A stretch of 64,000 nucleotides of DNA from Petropleomorpha daqingensis (lineage in GTDB: Bacteria; Actinomycetota; Actinomycetes; Mycobacteriales; Geodermatophilaceae): contig NZ_JACBZT010000001.1 of assembly GCF_013408985.1 (NCBI RefSeq), positions 3,472,001 through 3,536,000 of the forward strand. The letters are read 5' to 3'. Below are positions 41,092 to 60,193 of this stretch, in pieces (position 1 is the stretch's first letter; each line of letters begins with the position of its first letter). A model generated the notes under the pieces. It was not told where the DNA came from and did no database searches. It saw only the letters and a list, made by a program, of their open reading frames with translations. The position numbers and the translations under genes were made by a program.

Positions 41092-42348
41092 ATGGACGTA
41101 CTGGTGGATCGGTGCGCGGGGCTGGACGTGCACAAGGACACCGTCATGGCGGTGGTGCGCCGCCCGAGGAAGGACGGCTCCGGGCGCGAGCAAGAGGTGC
41201 GCCAGTACCGGACCTTCACCGGCGCGCTGCGCGAGTTACGCGACTGGCTGGTGGCCGAGCGGGTCACGCAGGTGGCGATGGAGGCGACCGGCTCGTACTG
41301 GAAGCCGGTCTGGCATGTGCTGGAGGCCGAGACCGGCTATGAGTTGCTGCTGTGCAATCCGCGGCACGTGAAGAACCTGCCCGGGCGCAAGACCGACGTC
41401 GGCGACGCCGCCTGGCTGGCCCAGATGCTGGAGTGCGGGCTGCTGCGCGGCAGCTTCGTGCCCACCCCGGTGATGGCCCGGCTGCGCGACCTGACCCGCT
41501 ATGCCAAGAAGCTGACCGAGGAGCGCACCCGGGAGATCCAGCGGCTGCAGCGGGTGCTGGAAGACGCCGGGATCAAGCTGGACTCGGTCGCCTCCGACGT
41601 GATGGGCAAGTCCGCCCGGGCGATGCTGGAGGCGCTGATCGCCGGCGAACGCGACCCGGCGGTGCTGGCCGATTTCGCGCAGACCCGGATGCGGGTGAAG
41701 ATCCCCGACTTGCGCCTGGCACTGGAGGGCGGGTTCAGCGAGCACCACGCACTGCTGCTGCGCATGCTGCTGGCCCACATCGACCACCTCTCCGCCGCCG
41801 TCGACCAACTCCATGCCCGGGTGGAGGCCGAGATCGCCCCTTTCTCCCGGGCGGTTGAGCTGCTCGGCACCATCCCCGGCGTCGGTCCCCGCACGGCGTG
41901 GGTACTCCTGGCCGAGGCCGGCCCCGACATGACCCGCTTCCCGACCGCGGCGCACCTGGCCTCCTGGGCGGGGCTGTGCCCGGGCAACCACGAGTCGGCC
42001 GGCAAACGACCCTCCGGGCGCGCCCGCAAGGGCGACACCGCGTTGCGCACCGCGATGGTGGAGGCCGCCTGGGCCGCGACCCGCACCCGCAGCACCTACC
42101 TGGGCGCGCAGTACCAGCGCTTCCGGCGGCGCTTCGGCAGCCGGGGCGAGACCAAGGCCATCTTCGCCGTCGCCCACACCATGCTGGTGATCGCCTGGCA
42201 CGTCCTCGCCGAGCACAAGCCTTACGCCGAGCTCGGGGTCGACTACTTCACCCGCCGAACCGACCCCGAGGCGCACGCCCGACGCCTGGCCCGCGAAATC
42301 GAGAAGCTCGGCTTCGACGTCACCCTCCAGCCGCACGCCGCCGCCTGA
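41092..42348 (+). CDS. IS110-family transposase (bridge-RNA-guided recombinase type)
   Basis: A 418-residue recombinase. The N-terminal RuvC-like domain has the DEDD residues Asp12 (AGLDVHKD), Glu64 (AMEATGSYW), Asp102 and Asp105 (GRKTDVGDAAWL). A helical region follows, then the Transposase_20 domain with the helix-hairpin-helix TIPGVGPRTAWVLLAEAG and the conserved Ser of CPGNHESAGKRPSG, the candidate nucleophile. Both domains are full length, so the enzyme looks intact. ATG start with GGGAGGGG upstream. The order of left non-coding end then gene matches the IS110 group, not IS1111. Confidence 0.95.
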   Translation: MDVLVDRCAGLDVHKDTVMAVVRRPRKDGSGREQEVRQYRTFTGALRELRDWLVAERVTQVAMEATGSYWKPVWHVLEAETGYELLLCNPRHVKNLPGRKTDVGDAAWLAQMLECGLLRGSFVPTPVMARLRDLTRYAKKLTEERTREIQRLQRVLEDAGIKLDSVASDVMGKSARAMLEALIAGERDPAVLADFAQTRMRVKIPDLRLALEGGFSEHHALLLRMLLAHIDHLSAAVDQLHARVEAEIAPFSRAVELLGTIPGVGPRTAWVLLAEAGPDMTRFPTAAHLASWAGLCPGNHESAGKRPSGRARKGDTALRTAMVEAAWAATRTRSTYLGAQYQRFRRRFGSRGETKAIFAVAHTMLVIAWHVLAEHKPYAELGVDYFTRRTDPEAHARRLAREIEKLGFDVTLQPHAAA

Positions 42349-43066: not shown

Positions 43067-43975
43067 TCATCGGCCTGCCCACACCGCATCGTCGGCCATG
43101 ACCGGGTCGAGATCGACGCGGACCAGGCTGGCCTGCCAGTCGAGGCTGGGGTTGGCGCTGCGGTACGGCGCGGCGACGCAGGCGTAGAGGGTGTCCGCGG
43201 CCGGCCCCCCGACGGCTACGGCGAAGGCCGTCCGGGTGCCGAAGCCGATCCGCTGGAGGACCTCGCCGCCCTGCGCGACCCGCAGGACCCCCTGGCGGGC
43301 GGCGTCGGCGACCCACAGGGTGCCGTCCGCGTGCAGCGCGATCCCATCGGGCAGGACGGCCCCGGAGGCCATCGCCTCGGTGAGGGTCGGAAAGGTCGCG
43401 CCGTCGGCGAAGTCCGCCCAGACGCGACGGTCGCTCAGGGAACCGTCGTCGCCGATGGTGAAGGCGGTGACGCGCGCGGCGAAGGTCTCGGCGACGAGGA
43501 ACGTGGCGCCGTCCGGGGTGATCGCCATGCCGTTGGGGAAGACCAGGTCGGTGGCGGCCGTCGATACCGAGCCGTCGGGGTCGACGCGGGCGATGACGGT
43601 GGCGGCGATGGTGTCGACGGTTCCTTCGTCCCAGCCGAAGTTCCCGACGTAGCTGCGGCCGGAGCCGTCGACGATCAGGTCGTTGGCGTGCCAGGGGAAC
43701 AGGCCGCTGAGGTCGGCGAGCTCGGTCAGCTCACCGTTCTCGAGCCGTAACAGGCGACGGTCGAGCATCGAGACGACGTGCAGCACGCCGTCCGGGCTCC
43801 AACCGAGCCCGGAGGGCTGCCCAGGGACCTCGCAGACGACGTCGCGGACGCCGTCCCCGTCGAAGGTGAGCACCGTCCTGGCGAAGAAGTCGGACGCGTA
43901 GAGGCGGCCGTCGCGCCAGCGGGGGCCCTCGAGGAACCCGTGGCCGATGCTGACCACGGTCTGGCTCACGGTCAT
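43067..43975 (-). CDS. SMP-30/gluconolactonase-family sugar lactonase
   Basis: A 302-residue six-bladed beta-propeller hydrolase that opens aldono-lactones. Metal ligands are recognisable: Glu in FLEGPRWRDG, Asn in FPWHANDLIVDGSG, Asn in DLVFPNGMAI and Asp in VLPDGIALHADG. In the proposed pathway it would convert L-rhamnono- (or other 6-deoxyaldono-) lactone to the free acid. It is the last gene of the leftward operon, 13 bases after the SDR. Confidence 0.88.
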   Translation of the reverse strand: MTVSQTVVSIGHGFLEGPRWRDGRLYASDFFARTVLTFDGDGVRDVVCEVPGQPSGLGWSPDGVLHVVSMLDRRLLRLENGELTELADLSGLFPWHANDLIVDGSGRSYVGNFGWDEGTVDTIAATVIARVDPDGSVSTAATDLVFPNGMAITPDGATFLVAETFAARVTAFTIGDDGSLSDRRVWADFADGATFPTLTEAMASGAVLPDGIALHADGTLWVADAARQGVLRVAQGGEVLQRIGFGTRTAFAVAVGGPAADTLYACVAAPYRSANPSLDWQASLVRVDLDPVMADDAVWAGR

Positions 43976-43987
43976 GGGGCCGTCCCT

Positions 43988-44764
43988 TCAGCTCTCGGGC
44001 TCGAAGCCGACGTTGCCGTTGATGGTCATCCCGCCGTCGACGACGAGCTCGTGCCCGCAGACGTAGCTCGCCGCGTCCGAGCACAGGAACAGCACCGCGG
44101 TGGCGATGTCCCGCGGAACGCCGATGCGTCCGAGCGCGATGCGGTCCTCGTAGACGGCGCGGACGGCCGGCGTGTAGAGCTCGGCGTTGAGCGGCGTGGA
44201 GATCGCGCCCGGAGCGACGGCGTTGACGCCGATGCCGAGCGGGCCCACCTCGAGGGCGAGCGCCTTCGTGAAGGAGACGACGCCGCCCTTCGCGGTGATG
44301 TACGCCGTCATGTCGGTGATGGCCTGGTGGGCGGTGATCGAGGAGATGTTCACGATCCGGCCGGTTCGGCGCGGAGCCATCCGGCGGACCGCGGCCCGCG
44401 CGCCGTGGATGTACCCGAAGAGGTTGGACCCGAGCAGGCGGCTCCAGTCCTCGTCGCTGGTCTCCAGGAACGGTTTGACCATGATGGCGGCGGCGTTGTT
44501 GACCCAGATGTCGATGTCGCCGAGCTCGTCGGTGACGCGGTCGGCGAAGGCCTCCACGACATCGGGAGCTGCGGTGCTCCCGTCCACGAACAGGGCCCGT
44601 CGCTCGAGCGCCTCGACCTGCTCGACGGTGTCGCGGTTACCGTCGGGCTCCGGCAGATGCAGGCTGGCGACGTCTGCGCCGGCCTCGGCGAGGGCCACCG
44701 CGATCCCCTGCCCGATCCCGCGGGATGCCCCGGTCACGACGGCGACCTTGCCCGACAGATCCAT
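43988..44764 (-). CDS. SDR-family NAD(P)-dependent dehydrogenase
   Basis: A 258-residue classical short-chain dehydrogenase: coenzyme motif VTGASRGIGQG, NNAAA, catalytic Ser in NISSITAHQ, Tyr/Lys in YITAKGG. It is a candidate sugar 1-dehydrogenase oxidising L-rhamnose (or related sugar) to the lactone, because the lactonase gene follows directly. An alternative is an epimerase/alcohol role. ATG start at 44764. Confidence 0.88.
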   Translation of the reverse strand: MDLSGKVAVVTGASRGIGQGIAVALAEAGADVASLHLPEPDGNRDTVEQVEALERRALFVDGSTAAPDVVEAFADRVTDELGDIDIWVNNAAAIMVKPFLETSDEDWSRLLGSNLFGYIHGARAAVRRMAPRRTGRIVNISSITAHQAITDMTAYITAKGGVVSFTKALALEVGPLGIGVNAVAPGAISTPLNAELYTPAVRAVYEDRIALGRIGVPRDIATAVLFLCSDAASYVCGHELVVDGGMTINGNVGFEPES

Positions 44765-44829
44765 CGTTGCTTCCCTCTCTCGCTGCGTTGTCGGCGATGC
44801 CCGGCGCAGACGCGCTGAGCGCTCGTGCG

Positions 44830-45804
44830 TCAGGGCCGGTCGCCCATGACGTGACCGTCCTGGTCGACACCGGTGATGACGGCGGGCAGCTGCTCCGGGA
44901 GCGCCACGGTGATCCACGACTCCACGGACCGGCCGGGCGCGACCGTGAGCTCCTGGCCGCGGGAGCGGGCGCCGGCGAGGCCGTCGAAGGGCCAGGCGCG
45001 TTGTGGTTCGACGGCCAGGCAGCGAAGGCGGCCGAACCAGGGGAAGCCGGTCGCGGCGCGGTTCTGCCAGATCCACGTCGCGGGGTATGCGGCGACGTCC
45101 CAGGACAGGGCGGCGTGCGGGAGCAGGCCGTTCTGCTCCACCACCGCCCAGCCCTCGTCGTGGCCGTGGCAGTAGACGAGTCGCTGGCCGGTCGCGGCGC
45201 TGAACCGCGACAGGTCCACCGGTCCGTCGGGAGCGGAGGACGTCGGCCAGGTGCCTTCCGTGGTGTCGAGGCCGTCGGGCTGCGCCGGGTCGACGGAGTA
45301 GCGGGTGGCCGGGAGGTGGAGCACGGTGCCGGCATCCGCGGCGAAGGCCGGGTGGTGGCCCCACACCATCGGGACGGGCAGCAGGCCGGTGTTCGTCACC
45401 CGCGTCGCGACCTGCACGGCGGGGTGGGTGGCGGACAGCGTCATGGACCGGGTGGCGGACAGCGTCGGGCGCAGGTGGGTCGCGACGACGCAGTGGTCGG
45501 GCCCGGACTCCACCACCTGCCAGGGGATGAAGGAACCCTCGCCGTGGAAGGGAAGCGGCATCCCGTCGAGGTGCGAGGCCTGACCGGCGTTGGGCAGCGT
45601 CTCCTGCCAGCCGCCGTGGTAGCCGGAGAGCCAGTCGAGCTCGGGGTCGTAGTAGGAGCTGACGCCGTCCGCGGCCGGTGGGCTGTCCCAGGTCTCGAAC
45701 GCGAGGGCGTTGACGTCGTCACCGGCTCGCGAGAGCTCGACGATCTGGGCGCCACGCGCGGGCTCGATCGTCAGGCTCACGTGCACGTTGGACAGTCGGA
45801 GCAT
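44830..45804 (-). CDS. Aldose 1-epimerase (galactose mutarotase-like) protein
   Basis: A 324-residue beta-sandwich protein of the aldose 1-epimerase superfamily, which interconverts sugar anomers. Recognisable parts are LTIEPARGAQIVELSRAG at the N-terminus, FHGEGSFIPWQ, MVWGHHPAFAADAG (with the catalytic-type His) and WFGRLRCLAVEPQRAWPFDG near the end with the acidic residue. It would supply the anomer used by the dehydrogenase. The ATG start is followed leftward by the SDR 65 bases away. Confidence 0.82.
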   Translation of the reverse strand: MLRLSNVHVSLTIEPARGAQIVELSRAGDDVNALAFETWDSPPAADGVSSYYDPELDWLSGYHGGWQETLPNAGQASHLDGMPLPFHGEGSFIPWQVVESGPDHCVVATHLRPTLSATRSMTLSATHPAVQVATRVTNTGLLPVPMVWGHHPAFAADAGTVLHLPATRYSVDPAQPDGLDTTEGTWPTSSAPDGPVDLSRFSAATGQRLVYCHGHDEGWAVVEQNGLLPHAALSWDVAAYPATWIWQNRAATGFPWFGRLRCLAVEPQRAWPFDGLAGARSRGQELTVAPGRSVESWITVALPEQLPAVITGVDQDGHVMGDRP

Positions 45805-45967: not shown

Positions 45968-48169
45968 TCAGATGTCCAGGACCAGGCGTCGTCCTCGGCA
46001 GCGGGAGACGCAGGTCATCACGGTCTGGTTGGCGAGCCTTTCCTCGAGACCGAGCACTGAGTCCCGGTGCTCGGGGATGCCGTCGAGGACGTGGACCTCG
46101 CAGGTCCCGCAGGTGCCTTCGCGGCAGGTCGACAGCACGTTGGCGCCGACCCGGTTGACCGCATCCAGCATGGTGTCGTCCTCGGCCACGGTCACGACGG
46201 TGCCGCTGCGGGCGAGCACCACCTCGAACGGCCGGTTCGGTTCGTAGGTTGCGGGGCGGGCAGCGAACCGCTCCACCACGAGTTGCGATTCGCGGCCGAC
46301 CCGGCGGGCGGCGTCCTCCAGGCCGGACAGCAGTTCCTCGGGTCCGCAGGCGTAGACGTACGCGCCGTCCGGCAGCTCCGCCCACAAGCCTGCGAGGTCG
46401 AACCGGCCCAGCTCCTGGCTGGGCCACGTCTCCACGCGTGACCCGTGCCGGGTGACGAGGTCGTCGACGTAGGCCATCCGCTCGCGGGACCGGCCGAGGT
46501 AGACCAGCCGCCAGTCGGTACCGCGGCGTTCGGCCTCCTCGATCATCGCCAGCAGGGGAGTGATCCCGATACCGCCGGCGACGAAGACCAGCGAGTCCGC
46601 CGGTCGCAGCCGGAAGTGGTTGCGCGGTCCGCGGATCCGCAGCCGGTCGCCGGCCTGCACCTGGTCGTGCACGGTGACGGATCCCCCGCGACCGGTCTCC
46701 TCCCGCAGCACCGCGATGCGGAGCTCGGCAGCACCGGGGCGTCCGCACAACGAGTACTGCCGCAGGGCGCCGTCGGGGAGCTCCAGGTCGATGTGCGCCC
46801 CCGGCTCCCAGGTCGGCAGCCTCTCCGGCTGGTCGACTGTGAGAGTCAGCTCGACGACGTCCGTCGTCAGGGCCCGCCGGGCCGCCACGGTCACGGGGAC
46901 GGCCTCGGCCGCGGCCACCTCCACCGCGCGAACAGCCGTGCGCTCGGTCACCGGGACCGGCGTCCACGCCAGCGGAAGCGCCACCATGCCCCGGGCCTCC
47001 GAGACCATGGTGTACTCCAGGGCCTCGTACGGAACGGCCAGCCGCAGGTCGGGCAGCCGCTCGTGCAGGACGTCAAGCTCGACTCGGAGCAGCAGCCGGG
47101 CCAGCGGGGCGCCGATGCAGGCGTGCACGCCCTGACCGAAGCCGAGGTGGGGAACGGCCCACGACCGGTCGAGATCCAGTTCGTCCGGGTGGGAGAAGCG
47201 GCTGGTGTCTCGGGATCCGGACGCGTAGGCGAGGAACACCTGCTCGCCCGCCTTCAGCGGCACACCGCCGAGCGTGGTGTCTCGGGTGACCAGCCGCTTC
47301 ATCCCGGTGATGGCCGACTCGTAGCGGAACAGTTCCTCGAGGGCGGCCGCGCGGCTGGTGTCGTCCTGCTGCGCCGCCGCGTAGCGGGCGGGGTCGGCCA
47401 GCAGGTGCGACAGGCCCGTGCAGATGAGGTTGGACGACGTGTCGTGGCCGGCGAGCATCAGTCCCGGGAAGAGCGACAACATCTCGAAGTCGCTCATCTC
47501 CACCGTGCCCGCGTCCCGCATGTCCCAGACGTGGCTGATCAGGTCGTCCCGCCGATCATGCTTGCGCTCGGCCATGACCTCGAGGACGTAGTCGTGCAGG
47601 TCGAGCAGCAGCTGCGCCTTCTCCTCCGGCGTCCCGGAGTGGTAGATGTCGCCCGGGCCCAGGAAGAAGCCGAGCGCGGCACCGATCCAGTCGGCGCGCT
47701 CGACGTCCAGACCGACAACGTGGGCGATGACGCGCAGGGGCAGCGGCCGAGCGAACGAGAGCTTCAGGTCGGTGTTGCCCTGCTCGACGAAGCCGTCGAC
47801 CAGTCGGTGCGCCTGCTCGCGGATCCACGGCTCGTAGCGGGCCAGGCGGCGCGGCATGAAGAAGGTGTTGACGGCGGCCCGCAGCCGGTCGTGGTCGGGG
47901 TTGTCGAGACCGATCAGGGTGCCTCGGCTGGGCACCCGGCCCGCGAACTGCTCTCGGAACGGCGGCGGCATCTCGGGGACCGTCGCCGTGGAGGAGAAGG
48001 TGTCCGGGTCGTGCAGCGCCACGGTGATGTCGTCGTACCGGCTGACCACCCGGGAATCGAAGACCTGGGAGTACGGAAAGCCGTCGGTGGCCCGGGTGGC
48101 CGCGAGGTCCTGGAAGAGGTGGCGCGGATCGGAGAACGGGCAGGCGCCCTGGGGCTGCTGAGAGGACAT
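45968..48169 (-). CDS. Self-sufficient cytochrome P450 fused to FMN reductase and [2Fe-2S] ferredoxin (class VII-like)
   Basis: A 733-residue fusion. The P450 domain (about 1-400) has the I-helix AGHDTSS (240-246), ExxR in EELFRYES and the heme loop HLGFGQGVHACIGAPLA with Cys351. A phthalate-dioxygenase-reductase-like module follows: FMN site RQYSLCG (about 470), NAD site GGIGITP (about 531) and YACGPEELL. The C-terminal plant-type ferredoxin has CREGTCGTC (about 682-690) and a final Cys about 30 residues on. This is the P450RhF/CYP116B architecture, receiving electrons directly from NAD(P)H. The ATG at 48169 is preferred over an upstream GTG overlapping the previous gene. Its position among sugar genes suggests a sugar-derived substrate. 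Confidence 0.95.
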   Translation of the reverse strand: MSSQQPQGACPFSDPRHLFQDLAATRATDGFPYSQVFDSRVVSRYDDITVALHDPDTFSSTATVPEMPPPFREQFAGRVPSRGTLIGLDNPDHDRLRAAVNTFFMPRRLARYEPWIREQAHRLVDGFVEQGNTDLKLSFARPLPLRVIAHVVGLDVERADWIGAALGFFLGPGDIYHSGTPEEKAQLLLDLHDYVLEVMAERKHDRRDDLISHVWDMRDAGTVEMSDFEMLSLFPGLMLAGHDTSSNLICTGLSHLLADPARYAAAQQDDTSRAAALEELFRYESAITGMKRLVTRDTTLGGVPLKAGEQVFLAYASGSRDTSRFSHPDELDLDRSWAVPHLGFGQGVHACIGAPLARLLLRVELDVLHERLPDLRLAVPYEALEYTMVSEARGMVALPLAWTPVPVTERTAVRAVEVAAAEAVPVTVAARRALTTDVVELTLTVDQPERLPTWEPGAHIDLELPDGALRQYSLCGRPGAAELRIAVLREETGRGGSVTVHDQVQAGDRLRIRGPRNHFRLRPADSLVFVAGGIGITPLLAMIEEAERRGTDWRLVYLGRSRERMAYVDDLVTRHGSRVETWPSQELGRFDLAGLWAELPDGAYVYACGPEELLSGLEDAARRVGRESQLVVERFAARPATYEPNRPFEVVLARSGTVVTVAEDDTMLDAVNRVGANVLSTCREGTCGTCEVHVLDGIPEHRDSVLGLEERLANQTVMTCVSRCRGRRLVLDI

Positions 48170-48200: not shown

Positions 48201-49301
48201 TCAGATGTGGCCACGGGTCGTCAGCGGGGCGAGCACGGACGAGTCGACGTCCGCGAGGCGGGCGGCGCCTGTGATGGCCATGACCTGCGCCAGCTCGTCG
48301 CGCAGGATGCCGATGACGCGCTCGACTCCGTCAGCGCCGCCGACGGCGAGCCCCCACAGGGTGGGACGGCCGATCAGCACGGCCCGGGCGCCGAGCGCGA
48401 GCGCGCGGAGCACGTCCGCTCCCGTCCGGATGCCGCTGTCGGCGTAGACCTCGAGGTCGTCTCCCACGGCGTCCACGATCGCGGGCAGCGCGTGGGCCAC
48501 CGGCATCGAGTACCGCAACCCCTGGCCGGCGTGGTTGGACACGATGACAGCGGCGGCGCCGTGCTCACGGGCGAGGACGGCGTCCTCGGGCCGGATGACA
48601 CCCTTCAAGATCAGCGGCAGGTCCGACAGCCCGCGGAGCCACTCCAGCTCGGCCCAGGTGACCGCGGAGTTCGGGAAGGTCGAGCCGAACGGCTTGTGCT
48701 GGTAGTCGTGGCGGACGTACATCATGTGCTCGTCGGTGGCCCACTGCTCGTCGAGCGCCCGAGACGCGGCCCGCATGCGGGCGGGGAAGGACGGCATGAC
48801 CGGCAGGTCCACCGTCAGGCACAGGCCCGTGGCGCCGGCCGCGACCGCCCGGTCGACCATGTCCTTGACGACGTCGCGGTCGCGCAGCCAGTACAGCTGC
48901 TGCCAGTAATGGCCGGCGGCCACCGCTCCGACCTGCTCGGGTGTCCGGGAGCCCATCATGCTCAGGGTGGTGATCGTCCCGGCGGCCACGGCTCCCCGCG
49001 CCGTGGCGATCTCGCCGTCCGGGTGGACGAAGGTGGAGCCGACGAAGGGCGCGGTGATGACCGGTGCCGTGATGTCCTGGCCGAGGACGGTGACCGACGT
49101 GTCGATGGCGCTGACGTCGGTCAGGGCGCGGGGGCGCAGGTGCAGCCCGCGCCACGCCCCGAGGTCGTCGCGCAGCGTCTCGTCCATCCCGACGTTGTTC
49201 ACGAAATCCCGGTAGGCCTCGGGCATCACGCGCTCCGCCGCGGCCTGGAACTCCTCGATCTCGACGAGGTCGGTGAGGTCTGCCGTCAGGTCCGTGGTCA
49301 T
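48201..49301 (-). CDS. FMN-dependent alpha-hydroxyacid-oxidase-fold protein with altered active site
   Basis: A 366-residue TIM-barrel flavoprotein. FMN-binding regions are conserved (ITAPVITAPFVGSTFVHPDG, QQLYWLRDRD, LILKGVIRPEDA, VYADSGIRTGADVLRALALG, AVLIGRP). The signature S-N-H-G-[AG]-R-Q reads SNHAGQGLRYS: the active-site His is kept but the substrate Arg is Gln. The second carboxylate Arg (normally in G-R-R-E) is also absent; the segment reads VMPSFPARM. Loss of both arginines argues against simple 2-hydroxy acids as substrates. The ATG at 49301 follows AAAGGAC. It lies immediately upstream of the P450. Confidence 0.85.
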   Translation of the reverse strand: MTTDLTADLTDLVEIEEFQAAAERVMPEAYRDFVNNVGMDETLRDDLGAWRGLHLRPRALTDVSAIDTSVTVLGQDITAPVITAPFVGSTFVHPDGEIATARGAVAAGTITTLSMMGSRTPEQVGAVAAGHYWQQLYWLRDRDVVKDMVDRAVAAGATGLCLTVDLPVMPSFPARMRAASRALDEQWATDEHMMYVRHDYQHKPFGSTFPNSAVTWAELEWLRGLSDLPLILKGVIRPEDAVLAREHGAAAVIVSNHAGQGLRYSMPVAHALPAIVDAVGDDLEVYADSGIRTGADVLRALALGARAVLIGRPTLWGLAVGGADGVERVIGILRDELAQVMAITGAARLADVDSSVLAPLTTRGHI

Positions 49302-49434
49302 CGCCGCTGTCCTTTTCAATGAGCGTGCCGGTGGGAGCTGGTGAGCGTCGGAGAACGCGAGACCCCGGTGTTCCGGGTGCGTGGTCGCACGGAGGGGCGT
49401 CGATCCGGAACCGGGTTCGGGCCGGGCCGCAGGC

Positions 49435-50463
49435 TCAGGCTTCTAGCGCATGGAGGTCCTCGGCGTGCCGCACGCCGAGTTGTGCGGTGGCCTCTTCCAA
49501 GACGGAGAGGACGGCGAGCGTGTCCGTCCAGGGCACGACCGTGCTCTCGGTGCGTCCGTCGAGGACGCACCGGGTGACCTCGGTCAGTTCGGGAACGTAT
49601 CCCTGGCCCGGGATGGGGTCGTGGAACGTCTCCGGCTCTGCTCCACGACGGTGGAGCTGCAACCGCTCCGGCCGGAGGAACGGCGGACCGACGTCGATCC
49701 AGCCGGCGCTCCCGAACACGCGCGCCGACGCCGGCATGCCATGGCGCATCGACAGGGTGAAGGAGGCGCTGCGTCCCCCTGTCCAGCCCAGCAGCAAGCC
49801 GACCTCCTCGTCGACGCCGGTGGTGGATCGCACGCCGGTCGCTGCGACCGTGTCGGGAGCGCCTAGGATCATCTGCGCCAACGAGACCGCGTACACGCCG
49901 ACGTCGAGCAGCACGCCGCCTCCCAGCGCCGCGTTGTAGAACCGGTCGGCCGGGTCGGTCGGCAGGGGCAGCCCCGCGGTGATGTGCAGTGCGCGCACGT
50001 CGCCGATGGCCGCCTGGGCCAGCAGGTCGCGCAGCCGGGCGATCGCCGGGTGGAAGCGCATCCAGACGCCCTCCATGGCGAACCTGCCGGCCTTGCTCGC
50101 GGCGTCGAGGATCTCCTCGGCGCCGGCCAGCGTCAGCGCCAACGGCTTCTCGACCAGGACCGACTTGCCGGCCCGCAGGGCAGCTACCGCGATCGCGTGG
50201 TGTTGAGCACTGGTGGTCGCGATGTACAGCACGTCGATCTCGGGGTCGTCGAGCAGCTGGCCGTAGCTGCCGTAGGCGCGCCCGATGCCGTGCCGGCGTG
50301 CGAAGTCCTCCGCGCGGGACGCAGAGCGGGAGGCGACCGCCACGACCTCGGCGCCCTCGACGAGCGGGAAGTCGGCCATCACGGTCTCGGCGATGCGCCC
50401 GGGGCCCACGATGCCCCACCGCACGGCTCGTCCGTCAGTGGACGGGGAAGCTGGCTGCACCAC
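49435..50463 (-). CDS. Gfo/Idh/MocA-family oxidoreductase
   Basis: A 342-residue NAD(P)-dependent sugar dehydrogenase-like protein: N-terminal Rossmann motif RWGIVGPGRIAETV, the conserved E-K-P in SVLVEKPLALTLAG, and a C-terminal alpha/beta domain containing GGGVLLDVGVY with the usual His/Tyr-type catalytic helix. Members oxidise sugars, inositols or aminosugars at C1 or C3. It could act at C1 or at another ring carbon of the pathway sugar. A GTG pair at 50463/50460 follows a GAGGAGA site; it heads the leftward oxidase-P450 gene group. Confidence 0.88.
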   Translation of the reverse strand: MVQPASPSTDGRAVRWGIVGPGRIAETVMADFPLVEGAEVVAVASRSASRAEDFARRHGIGRAYGSYGQLLDDPEIDVLYIATTSAQHHAIAVAALRAGKSVLVEKPLALTLAGAEEILDAASKAGRFAMEGVWMRFHPAIARLRDLLAQAAIGDVRALHITAGLPLPTDPADRFYNAALGGGVLLDVGVYAVSLAQMILGAPDTVAATGVRSTTGVDEEVGLLLGWTGGRSASFTLSMRHGMPASARVFGSAGWIDVGPPFLRPERLQLHRRGAEPETFHDPIPGQGYVPELTEVTRCVLDGRTESTVVPWTDTLAVLSVLEEATAQLGVRHAEDLHALEA

Positions 50464-50561: not shown

Positions 50562-51242
50562 CTAATAGGTGGCTCGGCCCCCGCTGATGTCGTAGACGGC
50601 GCCGGTGGAGAAGCTGACCCGGTCCGAGCAGAGGAACGCGACCAGCTCGGCGACCTCCTCGGGTCGTCCGATGCGCTTCATCGGGATCAGGCTCGTGATG
50701 TGCGCGAGCACGTCCGGCGCGGTGTCGTCGTTCATCGGGGTCGCGATCACCGCTGGTGCGATGACGTTGACCAGGACCCCGGAGGTGGCCAGTTCCTTGC
50801 CCGCGGACTTGGTCAACGCGATCACGGCGGCCTTGGACGCCGAGTAGATCGACAGGTTCGGGTTGCCGTCCTTGCCGGCCATGCTGGCGAAGTTGACCAC
50901 GCGGCCCCACCCCCGCTCCCGCATGCCGGGGACGAAGGCGCGCATGGTGTTCACGGTGCCGACGACGTTGATGTCCAGGACGCGGCGCCACTCCTCGGCG
51001 GTGGTCTCGACCAGGGGTTTGTTGGGGCCGACGACGCCGGCCGCGTTGACCAGCACGTCGACCGGGCCGATCTCCTGGGCGATCCGGCGCAGCGCGTCGT
51101 CGTCGGTGACGTCGGCGGAGATGTCCGCCCCGGTGAGGTCCAGGGTGGTCACGGCCACGCCGTCGGCTCGCAGGCGGTCGGCGGTGGCGGCGCCGAGGCC
51201 GCGGCCCCCGCCGGTGACGAGTGCGGTCCGGGTGGTCGTCAT
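50562..51242 (-). CDS. SDR-family dehydrogenase
   Basis: A 226-residue short-chain dehydrogenase with ALVTGGGRGLGAATA, VLVNAAGVVG, FASMAGKDG (catalytic Ser) and YSASKAAV (Tyr/Lys). It resembles sugar or 3-oxoacyl reductase-type SDRs and is a second candidate for the sugar 1-dehydrogenase or for the 2-keto-3-deoxy acid dehydrogenase. It is encoded 28 bases after the FAD/Fe-S dehydrogenase on the same strand. Confidence 0.87.
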   Translation of the reverse strand: MTTTRTALVTGGGRGLGAATADRLRADGVAVTTLDLTGADISADVTDDDALRRIAQEIGPVDVLVNAAGVVGPNKPLVETTAEEWRRVLDINVVGTVNTMRAFVPGMRERGWGRVVNFASMAGKDGNPNLSIYSASKAAVIALTKSAGKELATSGVLVNVIAPAVIATPMNDDTAPDVLAHITSLIPMKRIGRPEEVAELVAFLCSDRVSFSTGAVYDISGGRATY

Positions 51243-51270: not shown

Positions 51271-54078
51271 TCACCGGGTGACGGTCTCGAGGAGTTCGAG
51301 TACGTGCCGGTAGGGATGTCCGGTGGCTCGCGTCATGCCGAGCTCGCAGGTGCGGTTGACCGACGCGTAGGCGCTGGCCGGGTGTTCCCGGACGGCGTGG
51401 GCTTCGGCTGCGGTGGCGCTGGCGGTGAGTTCGGGGTGCAGCAGACCGCGGTCGCCGGCGAAGGCGCAGCACGTCCAGTCGTCGGGGCGCACGACCTCGT
51501 CGGCGACCGCTGCGGCCACCCGCAGCAGCGCGTCCTCGATGCCGAGCTGGGTCGAGGAGCAGGTCGGGTGCACGACCACCGAGGCGATCCGGCGGGCGGC
51601 GGGCAGTCGCGGCAGCACGGTGGCGTCGACGAACGCGACGGCGTCCACGACGTCGATGCCCTGTTCGCCCAGCAGGAGCTGCAGGCCTTCGGTGCACGAG
51701 GTCGCGTCGACCGCCACCGGAAGAGCGCCCCCGTCGGTGGCGCGTCGCAGCACAGGGAGGACGCGTTCCCGCATCGCGGCGTACCCCTCGGTCAGGCCCT
51801 TGGACTTCCACGGTGTTCCGCAGCACAGCGAGCCGATGCCCTCCGGCACGCGGACGGGGACGGCGGCCCGATCGCACAGCTCGAGGAACGCGTCGCGGAC
51901 CCCCAGGGCGCCGGCTGCAGGGCCGAACATGGTCGAGATGCAAGCCGGGAAGTACACGGCTACGGGTTGCTCGGCCGGGTGGGGGAGGCGGCGGCTGCCT
52001 CCCCGGGGCAGCTCCGGGGACCAGGCAGGGACGACGTCGTCGCCGAGCAGCGCCCGGCCGGCGGCCGTCACGGCGCGGGGGAGGGGGGCGGGCACCGCCC
52101 TCGCGGCGGTCAGCGCGGCCGCGGCCGCGCGGGTGGCGGCGTCCCAGTGCCGGGCCGCGGTGGTCCAGGCCTTCTGCTCGATGCGGCCGTGGGACTCTGC
52201 GCGCAGCCGGCGGGTGAGGTCGCCGGTGTCGATGAGCACGGGGCAGGCGGTCCGGCACATGCCGTCGACCGCGCAGGTCTCCACCGCGTCGTACCGGTAC
52301 TCGTCCTCCAGGCACTCGAGCAGCGCGGCGTGCCCGGCATCCCGGGCGCGGGCCATCTCGCGGCGCAGCACGATCCGCCGCCGGGGCGTGGTGGTGAGGT
52401 CCTTGCTCGGGCACACCGGCTCGCAGTAGCCGCATTCCACGCAACGGTCGACCTCGACCTCGACGGTCGGGGTGGACTTGAGATGGCTGACGTGGCCGGC
52501 CGGGTCCTCGTCGAGCAGGACGCCAGGATTGAGCAGGCCGCACGGGTCCAGCAGCCGCTTGGTCTCGCGCATGACCTCGTACAGCTCCTCGCCGTACTGC
52601 CGTCGCACGAACGGGGCCATGATCCGGCCGGTGCCGTGCTCGGCCTTGAGCGTGCCGCCCGCGTCCAGCACGAGGCCGACCATGTCGTCGGTGAAGCGCA
52701 GGTAGCGGTCGACGTTGCCGGCCGCGTCGAAGTTCTCGTTGAGCAGGAAGTGGACGTTGCCGTCCTTGGCGTGGCCGAAGATCACGCTGCCGGTGTAGCC
52801 GTGGACGTCGAACAGCCGGACGAGCTCTTGGCAGGTGGGCAGCAACTCGGGCACGGGGACGGCGATGTCCTCCAGCAGTGCCGTCGTCCCGGACGGGCGT
52901 GCCCCGGCCACGGCGGTGTAGAGGCCCTTCCGGATGTGCCACAGCGCTGCCCGTTCGGCCGCGTCGGCGGAGAGGGCCGCGGGGGAGGACAGCGGCAGGC
53001 CGGCGAGCACCCGCTCGGATGCGGCGACGCGGTCGGCGAGCTCTTTGTCGGTGGGCTGCTGGTGCTCGACGAGCAAGGCGGCGTGGTCGCGTACCTCGAG
53101 GGATCGGAGGGCGGCGATCGCCCCCGGGTCGGTCTGGGCGACGCGCAGGCTCGTGGCGTCGAGCAGTTCGATGGTGGCCAAGCCCGAGTCCACCAGCGCA
53201 GGCAGCGAGCCGGTGGCCGCGGCGAGATCGGGGAACACCAGCAGCGCGGTGGCGGCGTGCCGGTGGGCGGGGACGGTGCGGAAGGTGGCCTGGGCGACGA
53301 AGGCCAGCGTGCCCTCGGAGCCGATGACGAGGTGCAGCAGGACGTCGACCGGCCGGTCGTGGTCGAGAAAGGAGTTGACCCCGTACCCCATGGTGTTCTT
53401 CAGCGAGTAGAGGGCCTGGATGCGGCGCACCGAGCCGGGGTTGCCGCGCACCCGGTCGCGCAGCCGGGCCAGGCCCTCGTACACGTCGGGCTCGAGTGCC
53501 CGCAGGCGCTCGTCGGCGTCCGGAGCCCCGGTGTCCAGGACCGTGCCCGAAGGCAGTACCAGGATGGCGGACTCCAGCGTTCGGTAGGTGTTCAGCTCGG
53601 TGCCGCAGGCCATGCCGGAGGAGTTGTTGGCGACGACGCCGCCGATCGTGCAGGCGGATTCGCTGGCCGGGTCGGGGCCGAGCTTGCGCCCGTACCGCGC
53701 CAGCCGGGTGTTGACCTCGCGCACCGTCGCTCCGGGCTGCACACGTACCCGGGCGCCGTCGTCGAGCACCTCGATACGCCGGAAGTGCCGCCGCGTGTCG
53801 ACCAGCACGCCGTCGTTGGTCGCCTGCCCGGACAGGCTGGTGCCGCCCGAGCGGAACGTCAGCGCCAGCCCGGAGGCGGCAGCGGTGCGTAGCAGGGCGC
53901 CCACCTGGCTCGCGTCGCGCGGGCTGACGACCGCCTGCGGGACGAGCAGGTAGTGCGAGGCGTCGTGGGCGAACCCGAGCCGGTCGGTGGCCCGGGCCGC
54001 GACCGCGCCGGGCGCGGCCTGCTCCAGCGCGGCGAGCAGCCCGGGGTCGGGGGAGAGGAGGTCCTCAGTGCGACTCAC
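51271..54078 (-). CDS. FAD-linked/Fe-S D-lactate-dehydrogenase-like protein
   Basis: A 935-residue membrane-associated type flavoprotein. The N-terminal PCMH-type FAD domain has TFRSGGTSLSGQATNDGVLV and CTIGGVVANNSSGMACGT. The FAD-oxidase C-terminal domain contains GHAKDGNVHF and LKAEHGTGRIMAPF. The ferredoxin-like part carries two 4Fe-4S clusters (CVECGYCEPVCP and CAVDGMCRTACP), and CCG-type cysteines occur near the end (LCCGTPW, TCCAF). The architecture matches respiratory D-2-hydroxyacid (lactate/glycolate) dehydrogenases feeding quinone. In the proposed pathway it would oxidise lactate released by the FAH hydrolase. It overlaps the dehydratase gene by 14 bases. Confidence 0.92.
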   Translation of the reverse strand: MSRTEDLLSPDPGLLAALEQAAPGAVAARATDRLGFAHDASHYLLVPQAVVSPRDASQVGALLRTAAASGLALTFRSGGTSLSGQATNDGVLVDTRRHFRRIEVLDDGARVRVQPGATVREVNTRLARYGRKLGPDPASESACTIGGVVANNSSGMACGTELNTYRTLESAILVLPSGTVLDTGAPDADERLRALEPDVYEGLARLRDRVRGNPGSVRRIQALYSLKNTMGYGVNSFLDHDRPVDVLLHLVIGSEGTLAFVAQATFRTVPAHRHAATALLVFPDLAAATGSLPALVDSGLATIELLDATSLRVAQTDPGAIAALRSLEVRDHAALLVEHQQPTDKELADRVAASERVLAGLPLSSPAALSADAAERAALWHIRKGLYTAVAGARPSGTTALLEDIAVPVPELLPTCQELVRLFDVHGYTGSVIFGHAKDGNVHFLLNENFDAAGNVDRYLRFTDDMVGLVLDAGGTLKAEHGTGRIMAPFVRRQYGEELYEVMRETKRLLDPCGLLNPGVLLDEDPAGHVSHLKSTPTVEVEVDRCVECGYCEPVCPSKDLTTTPRRRIVLRREMARARDAGHAALLECLEDEYRYDAVETCAVDGMCRTACPVLIDTGDLTRRLRAESHGRIEQKAWTTAARHWDAATRAAAAALTAARAVPAPLPRAVTAAGRALLGDDVVPAWSPELPRGGSRRLPHPAEQPVAVYFPACISTMFGPAAGALGVRDAFLELCDRAAVPVRVPEGIGSLCCGTPWKSKGLTEGYAAMRERVLPVLRRATDGGALPVAVDATSCTEGLQLLLGEQGIDVVDAVAFVDATVLPRLPAARRIASVVVHPTCSSTQLGIEDALLRVAAAVADEVVRPDDWTCCAFAGDRGLLHPELTASATAAEAHAVREHPASAYASVNRTCELGMTRATGHPYRHVLELLETVTR

Positions 54079-55774
54079 GGCTCACCTCGGAGCCGCTGGA
54101 GCCGACGAGGAAGTCCAGGTCGGCGCCGGTGTCGGCCTGCAGGACGTGGTCGACGTAGAGCCGCTCCCAGCCGCGGGCGGGGTTGGCGAAGCCGGCGACG
54201 GTGGCCTCGTTCGGAGTGCGGGCGGCCAGCACGGCGTCGTCGATCTCGACGTCGATCCGGCGGGCCTCGACGTCCAGGCTGATCACGTCGCCGGTGCGGA
54301 CCAGCGCGAGCGGGCCACCCGCGGCGGCCTCGGGGGCGACGTGCAGGACGACGGTGCCGTACGCGGTGCCCGACATCCGCCCGTCGCAGACCCGGACCAT
54401 GTCGCGCACGCCGGCCTCGAGCAGCTTCTTGGGCAGCGGCATGTTCGACACCTCGGGCATGCCCGGGTAGCCCTTCGGTCCGCAGCCGCGCAGCACGAGC
54501 ACCGAGTCGGCGGTGACGTCGAGGTCGGGGTCGTCCACGCGGGCGTGGAAGTCCTCGATCGAGTCGAAGACGACGGCCGGGCCGCGGTGGCGCAGCAGCT
54601 TCGGCGACGCGGCGGCGGGCTTGATGACCGCGCCGGACGGGGCGAGGTTGCCGCGCAGCACCGCGATGCCGCCGTGGGCGACCAGCGGGTCGGTGCGCGG
54701 GCGGATCACCTCGGCGTCCCAGATCGGGGCGTCGTCCAGGTAGTCGACCAGCGGCTTGCCGGTGACCGTGAGCGCGGAGGGGTCGAGCAGGTCGCGCACC
54801 TCGCGCAGCACGGCGAGCAGGCCGCCGGCGCGGTGGAAGTCCTCCATGAGGAACCGGCCGGCCGGCTGCAGGTCGACCAGGACGGGTACCTCCGAGCCGA
54901 TGCGGTCGAAGTCGTCGAGGGTCAGGTCGATGCCCAGCCGGCCGGCGATGGCCAGCAGGTGGACGACGGCGTTGGTGGACCCGCCGATCGCGGCCAGCGC
55001 GACGATCGCGTTGGTGAACGACGCCTTGGTGAGGAAGGTCGAGGGCCGCCGGTCGGCGGTGACCAGGTCGACGACCAGCCGGCCGGTGCCGTGGGCGGCC
55101 TCGAGCAGCCGGCTGTCGGCGGCCGGGGTGCCGGCCACGCCGGGGACGACGGTGCCCAGGGCCTCGGCGACCAGGCCCATCGTCGAGGCGGTGCCCATGG
55201 TGTTGCAGTGCCCGCGGGAGCGGATCATCGCCGACTCGGAGCGGGTGAACTGCTCGGCCGACAGCGTGCCGGCGCGGACCTCCTCGCTCAATCGCCACAC
55301 GTCGGTGCCGCAGCCCAGCGGCACCCCGCGGAAGGTGCCGGTCAGCATCGGGCCGCCGGGGACGACGACCGCCGGCAGGTCGACCGAGGCCGCGGCCATG
55401 AGCAGCGCCGGGATCGTCTTGTCGCAGCCGCCGAGGAGCACCAGCCCGTCGATCGGGTTGGCGCGGAACATCTCCTCCATCTCCATCGCGGCGAGGTTGC
55501 GCCAGAGCATCGCCGTGGGCCGCACGTTCGTCTCGCCCAGGCCCAGCACCGGCAGCTCGAGCGGGGTGCCGCCCGCGGCGTGCACGCCGTCGCGCACCGC
55601 CGCGGCCACCTCGGTCAGGTGCCGGTTGCAGGGCACGAGGTCCGAGGCGGTGTTGGCGATGGCGATCTGCGGCCGGTCGAAGCCGTCGGAGGGGATGCCG
55701 CGGCGCATCCAGGCGCGGTGGATGTAGGTGTTGCGGTCGTCGCCGGCGTACCACTGCGCGCTGCGGAGACTCAT
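54065..55774 (-). CDS. IlvD/Edd-family sugar-acid dehydratase
   Basis: A 569-residue Fe-S dehydratase of the IlvD/Edd family, closer in pattern to arabinonate/xylonate-type sugar-acid dehydratases than to dihydroxy-acid dehydratase. The cluster ligands are Cys49 (LVPCNRHL), Cys117 (GGCDKTIPA) and Cys190 (RGHCNTMGTASTMG). The lid and metal segment CDGRMSGTAYG is present. It would convert a 6-deoxyaldonate to the 2-keto-3-deoxy acid. Known rhamnonate and fuconate dehydratases are mostly enolase-superfamily enzymes, so this would be a different enzyme at that step. ATG at 55774; divergent from the IclR gene. Confidence 0.92.
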   Translation of the reverse strand: MSLRSAQWYAGDDRNTYIHRAWMRRGIPSDGFDRPQIAIANTASDLVPCNRHLTEVAAAVRDGVHAAGGTPLELPVLGLGETNVRPTAMLWRNLAAMEMEEMFRANPIDGLVLLGGCDKTIPALLMAAASVDLPAVVVPGGPMLTGTFRGVPLGCGTDVWRLSEEVRAGTLSAEQFTRSESAMIRSRGHCNTMGTASTMGLVAEALGTVVPGVAGTPAADSRLLEAAHGTGRLVVDLVTADRRPSTFLTKASFTNAIVALAAIGGSTNAVVHLLAIAGRLGIDLTLDDFDRIGSEVPVLVDLQPAGRFLMEDFHRAGGLLAVLREVRDLLDPSALTVTGKPLVDYLDDAPIWDAEVIRPRTDPLVAHGGIAVLRGNLAPSGAVIKPAAASPKLLRHRGPAVVFDSIEDFHARVDDPDLDVTADSVLVLRGCGPKGYPGMPEVSNMPLPKKLLEAGVRDMVRVCDGRMSGTAYGTVVLHVAPEAAAGGPLALVRTGDVISLDVEARRIDVEIDDAVLAARTPNEATVAGFANPARGWERLYVDHVLQADTGADLDFLVGSSGSEVSRESH

Positions 55775-55780
55775 GTGCCC

Positions 55781-55815
55781 TTCCAACTATCGACATGATG
55801 GTCTAACTTCTGGAA
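55781..55815. promoter_or_regulatory. Divergent promoter/operator between dehydratase and IclR genes
   Basis: Only 45 bases separate the two divergent starts. The gap contains TTCCA-N25-TGGAA and an inner ATCGACATGAT near-dyad in an AT-richer stretch. IclR proteins often autoregulate and control divergent catabolic genes, so this is the probable binding site. Confidence 0.5.
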
Positions 55816-56671: not shown

Positions 56672-57532
56672 GTGTTCCTGATGCGCATCGGCGCGCCCGG
56701 CGCCGAGAAGCCGATCGCCCGGCTCGACGACGACACCTACGTCGACCTGGCCGACGTCGTCGACGACTTCGACGAGGCCTTCTTCGGCAGCGGGGGACTG
56801 GACCGCATCCGCCCGGTCGTCGCCGAGCGGGCCGCGGCCGGCCAGGTCTCCCGGTTCGCCGGCGAGCGGATCGGCGCCCCGATCGCCCGGCCGCACCAGA
56901 TCCTGTGCATCGGGCTCAACTACCGCGACCACGCCGCCGAGACCGGCCAAGCCGTGCCCGCCGAGCCGATCCTGTTCACCAAGTCGCCCAACACCCTCAT
57001 CGGTCCGGACGACGACGTGCGCATCCCGCGCGGCTCGACCAAGCCCGACTGGGAGGTCGAGCTCGGCGTCGTCATCGGCCGCCGCACCAGCTACCTCGAC
57101 TCGCCCGAGGAGGCGCGCGACGCGATCGCCGGCTTCTGCGTGGTCAACGACGTCAGCGAGCGGGCGTTCCAGATCGAGCGGGCCGGTCAGTGGGTCAAGG
57201 GCAAGTCGGCCGAGACGTTCAACCCGGCCGGCCCCTGGCTGGTGACCCCCGACGAGATCGACGACGTCCTGGACCTGGACATGTGGCTCGACGTCAACGG
57301 CGTGCGCCGGCAGACCGGCAACACCAAGACGATGGTGTTCGACCCGTACGTGATCGTGCACTACCTCAGCCAGTTCCTCGTGATGGAGCCCGGCGACCTC
57401 ATCAACACCGGCACGCCGCCCGGCGTCGGGATGGGCTTCGACCCGCCGGTCTGGCTGCAGCCCGGCGACGTCATGGAGCTGGGCATCACCGGGCTCGGCG
57501 CGCAGCAGCAGACCGTGCTCGCGCCCCGGTGA
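56672..57532 (+). CDS. FAH-family hydrolase, probable 2,4-diketo-3-deoxy-sugar-acid hydrolase
   Basis: A 286-residue fumarylacetoacetate-hydrolase-fold enzyme. Metal ligands are in KPDWEVELGVVIG (two Glu) with Asp in VVNDVSERAFQ, and the C-terminal GDLINTGTPPGVGMG is conserved. The segment VKGKSAETFNPAGPWLVT is typical of hydrolases acting on 2,4-diketo-3-deoxy acids such as LRA6 of the non-phosphorylative rhamnose pathway, yielding pyruvate and lactate. The start is GTG 56672, or ATG 56681 in the same frame. The stop overlaps the zinc dehydrogenase start. Confidence 0.9.
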   Translation: MFLMRIGAPGAEKPIARLDDDTYVDLADVVDDFDEAFFGSGGLDRIRPVVAERAAAGQVSRFAGERIGAPIARPHQILCIGLNYRDHAAETGQAVPAEPILFTKSPNTLIGPDDDVRIPRGSTKPDWEVELGVVIGRRTSYLDSPEEARDAIAGFCVVNDVSERAFQIERAGQWVKGKSAETFNPAGPWLVTPDEIDDVLDLDMWLDVNGVRRQTGNTKTMVFDPYVIVHYLSQFLVMEPGDLINTGTPPGVGMGFDPPVWLQPGDVMELGITGLGAQQQTVLAPR

Positions 57533-58570: not shown

Positions 58571-59311
58571 ATGGACGACTTCGAGGGCCTCGTCGCCCTG
58601 GTCACCGGCGGTGCCAGCGGCATCGGCGCCGCCACCGCCGCGCACCTGCAGGAGCGCGGCGCGCGCGTGGCGGTTCTCGACCGGGACCCGGCCGGCGCGC
58701 CGGACGGCGTGCTGGCCCTGGGCTGCGACATCACCGACAGCGGCGCGGTCGACTTGGCCGTCGCATCGGTGGTCGACCGGCTCGGCGGCCTCGACGTGGT
58801 GGTGAACAACGCCGGCATCGGTGCCACCGGCGACGTAGCCGGCAACGACGACGCGGAGTGGGCCCGCGTGCTCGATGTCAACGTCACGGGCATGGCCCGG
58901 GTGTCGCGGGCGGCTTTGCCGCACCTACGCGCGTCACGGCACGCCGCGGTGGTGAACATGTGCTCGGCGGTGGCGTTCGTCGGCGTTCGGCAGCGGGCGC
59001 TCTACAGCGCCAGCAAAGGCGCCGTCCTCGCCCTCACGCTGGCGATGGCCGCCGACCACGCGGCCGACGGGATCCGGGTGAACGCGGTCGCGCCGGGCAC
59101 CGCCGACACCCCGTGGGTAGGGCGGCTGCTCGCGGCCGCCGACGACCCGGAGGCCGCGGCCGAGGCGCTGCGCAGGCGGCAGCCGATCGGCCGGCTGGTC
59201 ACCGCGGGCGAGGTCGCCCATGCGATCGCCTCGCTCGCCTCTCCCTCGGCCGCTTCGATCACCGGCACCGTCCTCCGGGTCGACGGCGGCATGACCACGC
59301 TGCGACTGTGA
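58571..59311 (+). CDS. SDR-family dehydrogenase, probable 2-keto-3-deoxy-sugar-acid dehydrogenase
   Basis: A 246-residue short-chain dehydrogenase: ALVTGGASGIGAATA, an early Asp after strand 2 (VAVLDRDP), which favours NAD, VVNNAGIG, and YSASKGAV. Its place beside the FAH hydrolase fits the step that oxidises C4 of the 2-keto-3-deoxy acid to the 2,4-diketo acid. ATG start with AGGGACGA upstream. The stop overlaps the start of a truncated gene. Confidence 0.9.
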   Translation: MDDFEGLVALVTGGASGIGAATAAHLQERGARVAVLDRDPAGAPDGVLALGCDITDSGAVDLAVASVVDRLGGLDVVVNNAGIGATGDVAGNDDAEWARVLDVNVTGMARVSRAALPHLRASRHAAVVNMCSAVAFVGVRQRALYSASKGAVLALTLAMAADHAADGIRVNAVAPGTADTPWVGRLLAAADDPEAAAEALRRRQPIGRLVTAGEVAHAIASLASPSAASITGTVLRVDGGMTTLRL

Positions 59312-59542: not shown

Positions 59543-60193
59543 GTGGCCGACGTCCAGCCCTTCGTCCGGGAACCCAAGCAGGAGCGCAGCCGTCAGTCCT
59601 TCGAGAAGGCACTCGACGCAGCCGTGGCCCTGATGGTGGAACGACGATCGGGCGCATTCACCCTCGCCGAGGTCGCCGAGCGGGCCGGGGTGTCCATCGG
59701 GTCGATGTACGGGCGGGTCGACAGCAAGGATGACCTCATCCGCACGGTTCACGCCCGCGAAATGGCCCGCATCCGCAACGAGCAGGAGGAGGTCTTCGCC
59801 ACGGCTGCGCCGGCCGACGAGGACCTCCCCCGGCTGGTCCGACGCATCATCGTGACGACAGCGGAGCACCTGCGCCGCAACGCCGCGGTTCTGGCGCCAC
59901 TGATGGTGGTCGGCAGCCAGGACCCGCAGGTCTTCGCGGCTGGACGCCCGGTCTACTACGGCCTGGTCGAGGCCTTCTGCTCGGCGTTGCTCACCCACCG
60001 CGACGAGATCCGGCGCGCGGATCCGGACCGGGCCGTGGTCTGGAGCTTCGACGTCGTCTACAGCGTCGTGGCCCGCCACCTCGGGCTCGGGAGCGCCCCG
60101 GATTTTGCCGTCGGTCTGGCTGACTGGGACCAGGTCCTCGACGATCTCACGGAGATCGTGACGGCCTTCCTGCAGGGCTCGACCGCGGGCTGA
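59543..60193 (+). CDS. TetR-family transcriptional regulator
   Basis: A 216-residue regulator with an N-terminal helix-turn-helix (about 15-62: RSRQSFEKALDAAVALMVER, FTLAEVAERAGVSIGSMYGR) and a helical ligand domain. GTG start. It could regulate the downstream Gfo/Idh-rhamnosidase genes, in front of which lies a strong dyad (60342-60379); this is inference. Confidence 0.88.
   Translation: MADVQPFVREPKQERSRQSFEKALDAAVALMVERRSGAFTLAEVAERAGVSIGSMYGRVDSKDDLIRTVHAREMARIRNEQEEVFATAAPADEDLPRLVRRIIVTTAEHLRRNAAVLAPLMVVGSQDPQVFAAGRPVYYGLVEAFCSALLTHRDEIRRADPDRAVVWSFDVVYSVVARHLGLGSAPDFAVGLADWDQVLDDLTEIVTAFLQGSTAG

Follow-up and report, generated by a model that had tools for sequence, protein, structure and literature searches.

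The window analysed here, a stretch of 64,000 nucleotides of Petropleomorpha daqingensis DNA, contains a gene for a cytochrome P450 fused to its own redox partners, and sequence comparison places this enzyme in a separate family, outside CYP116B. Ten of the eleven loci at which the family was found are glycoside-catabolic, the exception being that of a paralogue in the same genome. The role that we propose, with about an even chance of being right, is that the P450 oxidises the aglycone, by hydroxylation or aromatic O-demethylation, during plant-glycoside catabolism; such a step appears more likely than the removal of methyl groups from free sugars.

The P450 gene is intact and encodes 733 amino acids, from an ATG at 48169 to a stop at 45968 on the minus strand. 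A GGAG box precedes the ATG, which is separated by 31 nt from the stop of the FMN-dehydrogenase gene, and an in-frame GTG at 48214 is a longer alternative start. Because the gene is the sixth in a same-strand run of nine sugar-acid genes, from the dehydratase (55786) to the lactonase (43067), it is probably co-transcribed with them. The features of the region are the following:

43067 to 43975, minus strand: SMP-30/gluconolactonase-type lactonase
43988 to 44767, minus strand: short-chain dehydrogenase (SDR), placed by NCBIfam in the glucose-1-dehydrogenase subfamily; the start is an estimate based on where the domain lies
44830 to 45804, minus strand: DUF4432 protein ("mutarotase" is a reading of its fold)
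45968 to 48169, minus strand: self-sufficient P450; heme domain at about 46958-48169, FMN/NAD(P)H reductase at about 46250-46900, 2Fe-2S domain at about 45998-46210
48201 to 49319, minus strand: FMN-dependent alpha-hydroxyacid dehydrogenase/oxidase (PF01070)
49435 to 50463, minus strand: Gfo/Idh/MocA oxidoreductase
50562 to 51242, minus strand: short-chain dehydrogenase
51271 to 54078, minus strand: FAD/4Fe-4S oxidase, GlcD-like (2-hydroxyacid dehydrogenase type)
54065 to 55786, minus strand: IlvD/EDD-type sugar-acid dehydratase; a second copy (95%) lies elsewhere in the genome
55820 to 56641, plus strand: IclR-type regulator, divergent from the minus-strand run
56672 to 57532, plus strand: FAH-family hydrolase, scoring below the cut-off of its closest model (2,4-didehydro-3-deoxy-L-rhamnonate hydrolase)
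58571 to 59311, plus strand: short-chain dehydrogenase
59543 to 60193, plus strand: TetR regulator; six other P450-family loci have relatives of it (39-62%)
60680 to 61621, plus strand: Gfo/Idh/MocA oxidoreductase
61640 to 64000, plus strand: GH78 alpha-L-rhamnosidase; start approximate, continuing beyond the window end

The sequence-only reading of the window had described a fusion of P450, FMN reductase and ferredoxin lying between a mutarotase and an FMN oxidase homologue. The open reading frame, the Pfam domains and the matches to PDB sequences agreed on the fusion, and the two flanking genes, both on the minus strand, were those of the DUF4432 protein and the FMN-dependent dehydrogenase. 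Pfam detected p450 at residues 190-363 (E 3.5e-21) and Fer2 at residues 654-724 (7.8e-11), with FAD_binding_6 (426-519) and DmmA-like_N (524-628) slightly under the cut-off. Residues 11-732 matched 6kbh (E 3.2e-109) and residues 33-733 matched 6laa (6.1e-107), each of which is a fused P450-reductase over its length. The motifs AGHDT, FGQGVHAC (C351) and C-x4-C-x2-C were read directly. The chain carries a heme domain, an FMN reductase and a 2Fe-2S domain in that order, as does P450RhF, and electrons would pass from NAD(P)H through FMN and the 2Fe-2S centre to the heme. The AlphaFold2 model, made with six sequences, had a mean pLDDT of 51.9 and a pTM of 0.35 and was therefore too poor for reading the active site. 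The genome, a single contig of 5.38 Mb, gave 14 P450 HMM matches, some of which are pieces of one gene.

In P450 naming, one family by convention comprises proteins of at least 40% identity. The heme domain of the window P450 was 27-32% identical to those of seven CYP116B-like fusions, and membership in CYP116B was rejected; the earlier label "P450RhF type" is right for the architecture and wrong for the family. That the enzyme is a true CYP116B protein with the 2-hydroxyphenylacetate role reported for that subfamily is most improbable: it has the same three-domain architecture, but so low a heme identity and the glycoside neighbourhoods of its relatives speak against it. The seven fusions were called CYP116B-like from their mutual grouping and from the part of PMC8449657 that names homologues in B. 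multivorans and Cupriavidus. Heme parts within the family were 57-86% identical among themselves and 27-32% identical to those of other P450 fusions, the exception being L013, at 37% over just 154 residues. Among full-length heme domains from outside the family, the closest found were those of three unfused Amycolatopsis P450s (34-36%). The reductase part was 43-50% identical to those of the other fused proteins compared and up to 53% identical to stand-alone reductases.

The family formed one clade (100/100) in a tree of heme domains that omitted six of the seventeen control fusions and the control locus L027 (no complete ORF called); unfused P450s stood between the fused groups, and long branches were present. 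In AU tests, a single clade of all fusions was rejected (p 0.0002), as were a clade of the family and a second fused group (p 0.006) and a clade made up solely of the family and the seven CYP116B-like fusions (p 0.0001), a constraint that forces out an unfused P450 of Rhodococcus jostii RHA1. When that P450 was included with the family and the CYP116B-like fusions, the clade was not rejected (p 0.116). The RHA1 protein is encoded on plasmid pRHL3, where a stand-alone reductase gene is followed by the unfused P450 gene (L115:1387-3756); it groups with the CYP116B-like heme domains, so that the tree intermingles fused and unfused forms. From these comparisons it is plausible that the fusion arose independently of that in CYP116B.

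Ten intact copies and one decayed copy of the family were found, in five lineages. The window protein was about 82% identical to the copies in genomes G082 and G773, 78% to the paralogue in its own genome (2437655-2439847), 71-72% to two Arthrobacter copies, 58-60% to two Amycolatopsis copies and 51-54% to two Novosphingobium plasmid copies. A motif-based scan of the contigs of 84,980 species genomes, strict enough to miss members, gave six loci. Whole-genome searches (E <= 1e-135), in sets that overlap and are samples, found members in 4 of 397 genomes of the order (one of the four, G582, shares coordinates with the A. sacchari genome), in 1 of 396 genomes of the phylum (that of the window), in 1 of 345 genomes of the family of Arthrobacter S39 (S39 itself) and in 2 of 19 genomes of the genus of Amycolatopsis tucumanensis, both already among the ten. 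A match at 1e-60 was present in 83 of 146 relatives, and a family-level match in two genomes only, including that of the window. The best two of 2226 matching plasmid records, both from Novosphingobium, were family members; matches in phage records were only partial (16 records, none covering 80% of the protein), and the three matches listed were to the reductase end. Such a rare, patchy distribution is consistent with horizontal transfer. Past the 3' end of the P450 run, at a distance of about 0.7 kb, there is an IS110-family transposase gene (window 41092-42348, plus strand), as would fit a region with a history of mobility. Our literature search, which left most subscription journals outside, found no description of this fused P450 family.

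Neighbourhoods of the family members were annotated by running Pfam on one representative and by homology for the others. Deglycosylation machinery recurred at these loci (either GH106/GH43/GH3 or a glycoside 3-oxidase with a C-deglycosidase-like protein), together with a TetR regulator and other oxygenases. Both Arthrobacter loci had GH43, GH3, GH106 and a sugar ABC transporter, with an esterase and a DUF5597 protein in S39 only. The Novosphingobium loci had GH43, two GH3, a DUF5597 protein and a "glycosyl hydrolase" matching GH106, and TetR lay directly upstream of the P450. GH43, GH3, a glycoside 3-oxidase and TIM-barrel proteins were present in G082 and G773, with GH106 and a luciferase-like monooxygenase further out; in both, the gene directly upstream of the P450 on the same strand was that of an FAD_binding_3 monooxygenase. 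Genes read in one direction in A. tucumanensis in the order TetR, C-deglycosidase-like TIM barrel, short ORF, GMC oxidase, short ORF and P450, and in A. sacchari in the order P450, TIM barrel, GMC oxidase, TIM barrel and Gfo/Idh. The A. sacchari TIM barrel matched 8qvc (9.1e-110) and, lower in the list, a chain named DgpC1; we take both chains to be C-glycoside deglycosidases. The A. sacchari GMC protein matched 7qf8 (E 5.9e-201), which is PsG3Ox, the mangiferin 3-oxidase (PMC10646112). The 3-oxidase match of A. tucumanensis contained one internal TGA in the whole-genome search.

In Microbispora siamensis the P450 (L041:10001-10832) is decayed: it is missing residues 151-566 and has one stop and frame breaks. 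Around it are a 3-oxidase-like gene, a second match interrupted by two stops, and several genes of the C-deglycosidase-like kind; the step therefore seems dispensable there. The paralogue in the window genome adjoins cysS, DUF445 and a trypsin-like protease, and no marker gene was found in the approximately 40 kb around it. The same genome has an island at about 4.83-4.87 Mb (4820000-4878500) with GH106, GH43, two glycoside 3-oxidase-like genes and several C-deglycosidase-like genes, without this P450. Inspection by eye of 32 stretches upstream of P450 and TetR genes, many with starts that are approximate ORF starts, revealed no common palindrome as a shared operator.

Co-conservation was measured against ten control loci, taken from 18 fetched related P450 fusions and chosen for contig room, five from the same bacterial family and five from other families of the order. 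Markers were sought by tblastn within 18 kb on either side (E <= 1e-12, half coverage), and same-lineage markers were omitted for the family loci. At least one of GH106, GH43, GH3, 3-oxidase and luciferase-like monooxygenase was present at 40% identity or more at nine of the ten family loci and at none of the ten controls, and the TetR marker likewise (9/10, at 29-57%, vs 0/10). The markers were picked from family loci, no more than five lineages are represented by the ten loci, and the five controls from the same bacterial family may all be orthologues at a single locus. Matches at control loci were to the C-deglycosidase/TIM barrel at five (30-32%), FAH at two (32-35%), FMN dehydrogenase at one (40%) and dioxygenase at one (29%). 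Counted with these cross-lineage markers, glycosidases or a 3-oxidase with a C-deglycosidase lay near the P450 at 9/10 loci. The window locus scored on TetR alone: the GH78 gene, although within range, counts as a marker of that locus itself, and the GH43 genes are more than 18 kb away. No marker was found for the paralogue, which is outside the ten and for which 19.9 kb was searched.

The run in the window had been taken for a deoxy-sugar cluster, which is plausible: the GH78 rhamnosidase supports rhamnose, but three of the enzymes fell short of the cut-offs of specific models. The FAH hydrolase scored 324 bits against a cut-off of 500 for NF053535 (2,4-didehydro-3-deoxy-L-rhamnonate hydrolase), its nearest model. 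The dehydratase passed only the generic subfamily model PRK06131 (767 against 882 for L-arabinonate dehydratase), and the SDR at 43988, over the cut-off for the glucose-1-dehydrogenase subfamily, scored 194 against 400 for the L-rhamnose 1-dehydrogenase Lra1. Rhamnose freed by the neighbouring GH78 enzyme would be used by the sugar-acid operon, and the FMN dehydrogenase perhaps oxidises L-lactate from the diketo-hydrolase pathway, as knowledge of that pathway suggests. Within 12 kb past the window end are a peptide-type ABC transporter, an esterase and two GH43 genes. Window-side genes have homologues in the G082 and G773 islands (TetR 61-62%, ABC 80-81%, binding protein 63-66%, esterase 60-70%), and one of the GH43 genes has a 62% homologue in G082.

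Among genes called beside other family members, no match was found (E 1e-8, 40% coverage) to the dehydratase, the FMN dehydrogenase, the DUF4432 protein, the lactonase or the GlcD-type protein of the window, and the FAH, SDR and Gfo/Idh proteins had generic matches only (26-41%). A specific link of the P450 to rhamnose catabolism was rejected, as rhamnose-type pathway genes lay beside no other member in the neighbourhoods compared. The co-conservation expected of the P450 and its cluster was found for glycoside catabolism in general and failed for rhamnose or fucose pathway genes. The dehydratase occurred in 26 of 97 genomes searched, including that of the window, and no family P450 lay near it in six regions examined (the second copy of the same genome and five relatives). 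At 5347000-5366500 the window genome carries further copies of the dehydratase (95%), FAH hydrolase (93%) and SDR (84%) genes, without the P450. In the five relatives the dehydratase (86-90%) does not have the FAH hydrolase and SDR genes as neighbours and so may serve another sugar there.

The role first suggested was oxidative O-demethylation of a methylated deoxy-sugar, in which hydroxylation of the O-methyl group would release formaldehyde and make the free sugar available to the operon. The position of the P450 in a sugar-acid run with a rhamnosidase would suit it, GH106, GH43 and GH3 enzymes at other loci could release methylated sugars, and demethylation of 6-O-methyl-galactose in marine bacteria is a precedent in the portion of PMC10033563 consulted. 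We nevertheless consider it unlikely. Besides the isolation of the rhamnose-type genes, neither GH106 nor GH78 lay within 18 kb at the C-glycoside-type loci of Amycolatopsis and Microbispora; GH106 was not found anywhere in the genomes of A. sacchari and Microbispora, and A. tucumanensis had partial matches on another contig. The annotated neighbours, a part of all neighbours, included no formaldehyde-handling gene. None of the results points to O-demethylation of a sugar.

The other target suggested at the outset, an aromatic aglycone, fits better, as the sugar-releasing enzymes vary by lineage, the P450 stays and aromatic-type oxygenases recur. A constant P450 beside a varying means of sugar removal argues for action on the aglycone or the glycoside core. 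Oxygenase company at the family loci comprised FAD_binding_3 and luciferase-like monooxygenases, an extradiol dioxygenase with a cyclase, FAH and an amidohydrolase, which, in a comparison of gene types and not of fde or ifc sequences, resembles the A-ring route of flavonoid catabolism in the available part of PMC11069340. A luciferase-like monooxygenase (56-68% across lineages) occurred at family loci from Novosphingobium to Amycolatopsis (L060:12894-14030, L038:20078-21214, L029:17917-19131, L064:16330-17460). Extradiol-type dioxygenases and luciferase-like monooxygenases lie further from the P450 at other family loci; the ring-cleavage genes, about 15-19 kb away in Arthrobacter, Microbispora and Novosphingobium, may serve other compounds. 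Demethylation of methoxy compounds by CYP116 enzymes, as given in the consulted part of PMC11889516, makes aromatic O-demethylation a natural guess for the window P450. On this reading the enzyme, a member of a small, distinct class-VII-type family, belongs to catabolic islands for plant O- and C-glycosides, probably phenolic or flavonoid ones, and may oxidise the aglycone or the intact glycoside, by aromatic hydroxylation or aryl O-methyl removal, so that deglycosylation or ring cleavage can proceed. Counting against oxidation of the aglycone, the immediate neighbours in the window are sugar-acid and not aromatic genes, the nearest annotated FAD_binding_3 gene being about 28 kb from the P450; so do the markerless paralogue, the TetR-only score of the window locus and the Microbispora remnant.

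A further alternative is a broad-range detoxifying or scavenging P450 that travels with mobile catabolic islands and has no set place in the breakdown of glycosides; we regard it as rather unlikely. The patchy distribution, the second copy beside housekeeping genes and the Microbispora remnant would all agree with it, but the same kinds of genes accompany the P450 repeatedly in five lineages, and in two species an operon-like order joins it to 3-oxidase and C-deglycosidase-like genes. Returning to oxidation in plant-glycoside catabolism, we advance tentatively, and at less than even confidence, a fuller proposal: a new self-sufficient P450 family, with its own fusion of a P450 to a phthalate-dioxygenase-type reductase separate from that of CYP116B, would be dedicated to plant O- and C-glycoside breakdown and act on the glycoside or the aglycone in concert with modules of the 3-oxidase/C-deglycosidase or rhamnosidase kind. 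For most fused P450s the natural role has yet to be settled; if the proposal is true, a fused family that is separate and linked to the catabolism of glycosides and C-glycosides would provide a class of natural substrates that can be tested and a new biocatalyst made of a single component, and would supply an oxidative step so far missing from the use of recalcitrant plant glycosides by soil and plant bacteria.

The marine P450 system for 6-O-methyl-D-galactose demethylation works with separate redox partners. The window P450 is like it in its carbohydrate-catabolic setting, a comparison of setting and not of sequence made with the portion of PMC10033563 consulted. With CYP116B/P450RhF enzymes (class VII; OhpA, CYP116B234, CYP116B46) it shares the order of heme domain, FMN reductase and 2Fe-2S domain and the 43-50% reductase identity; it is unlike them in its distant heme domain, its separate clade and its glycoside context, the natural role reported for CYP116B in the sections consulted of PMC8449657 and PMC11889516 being oxidation of 2-hydroxyphenylacetate. 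The unfused Amycolatopsis P450s (L117, L118 and L119), with the nearest full-length heme domains found outside the family, are without a fused reductase. Five family-bearing loci resemble C-glycoside clusters of the PsG3Ox or CarA type in having homologues of both the 3-oxidase and the C-deglycosidase; the main text of PMC10646112, on such clusters, does not contain the term "P450". The window genome differs from these clusters in that its 3-oxidase and C-deglycosidase-like genes lie about 1.3 Mb from the P450.
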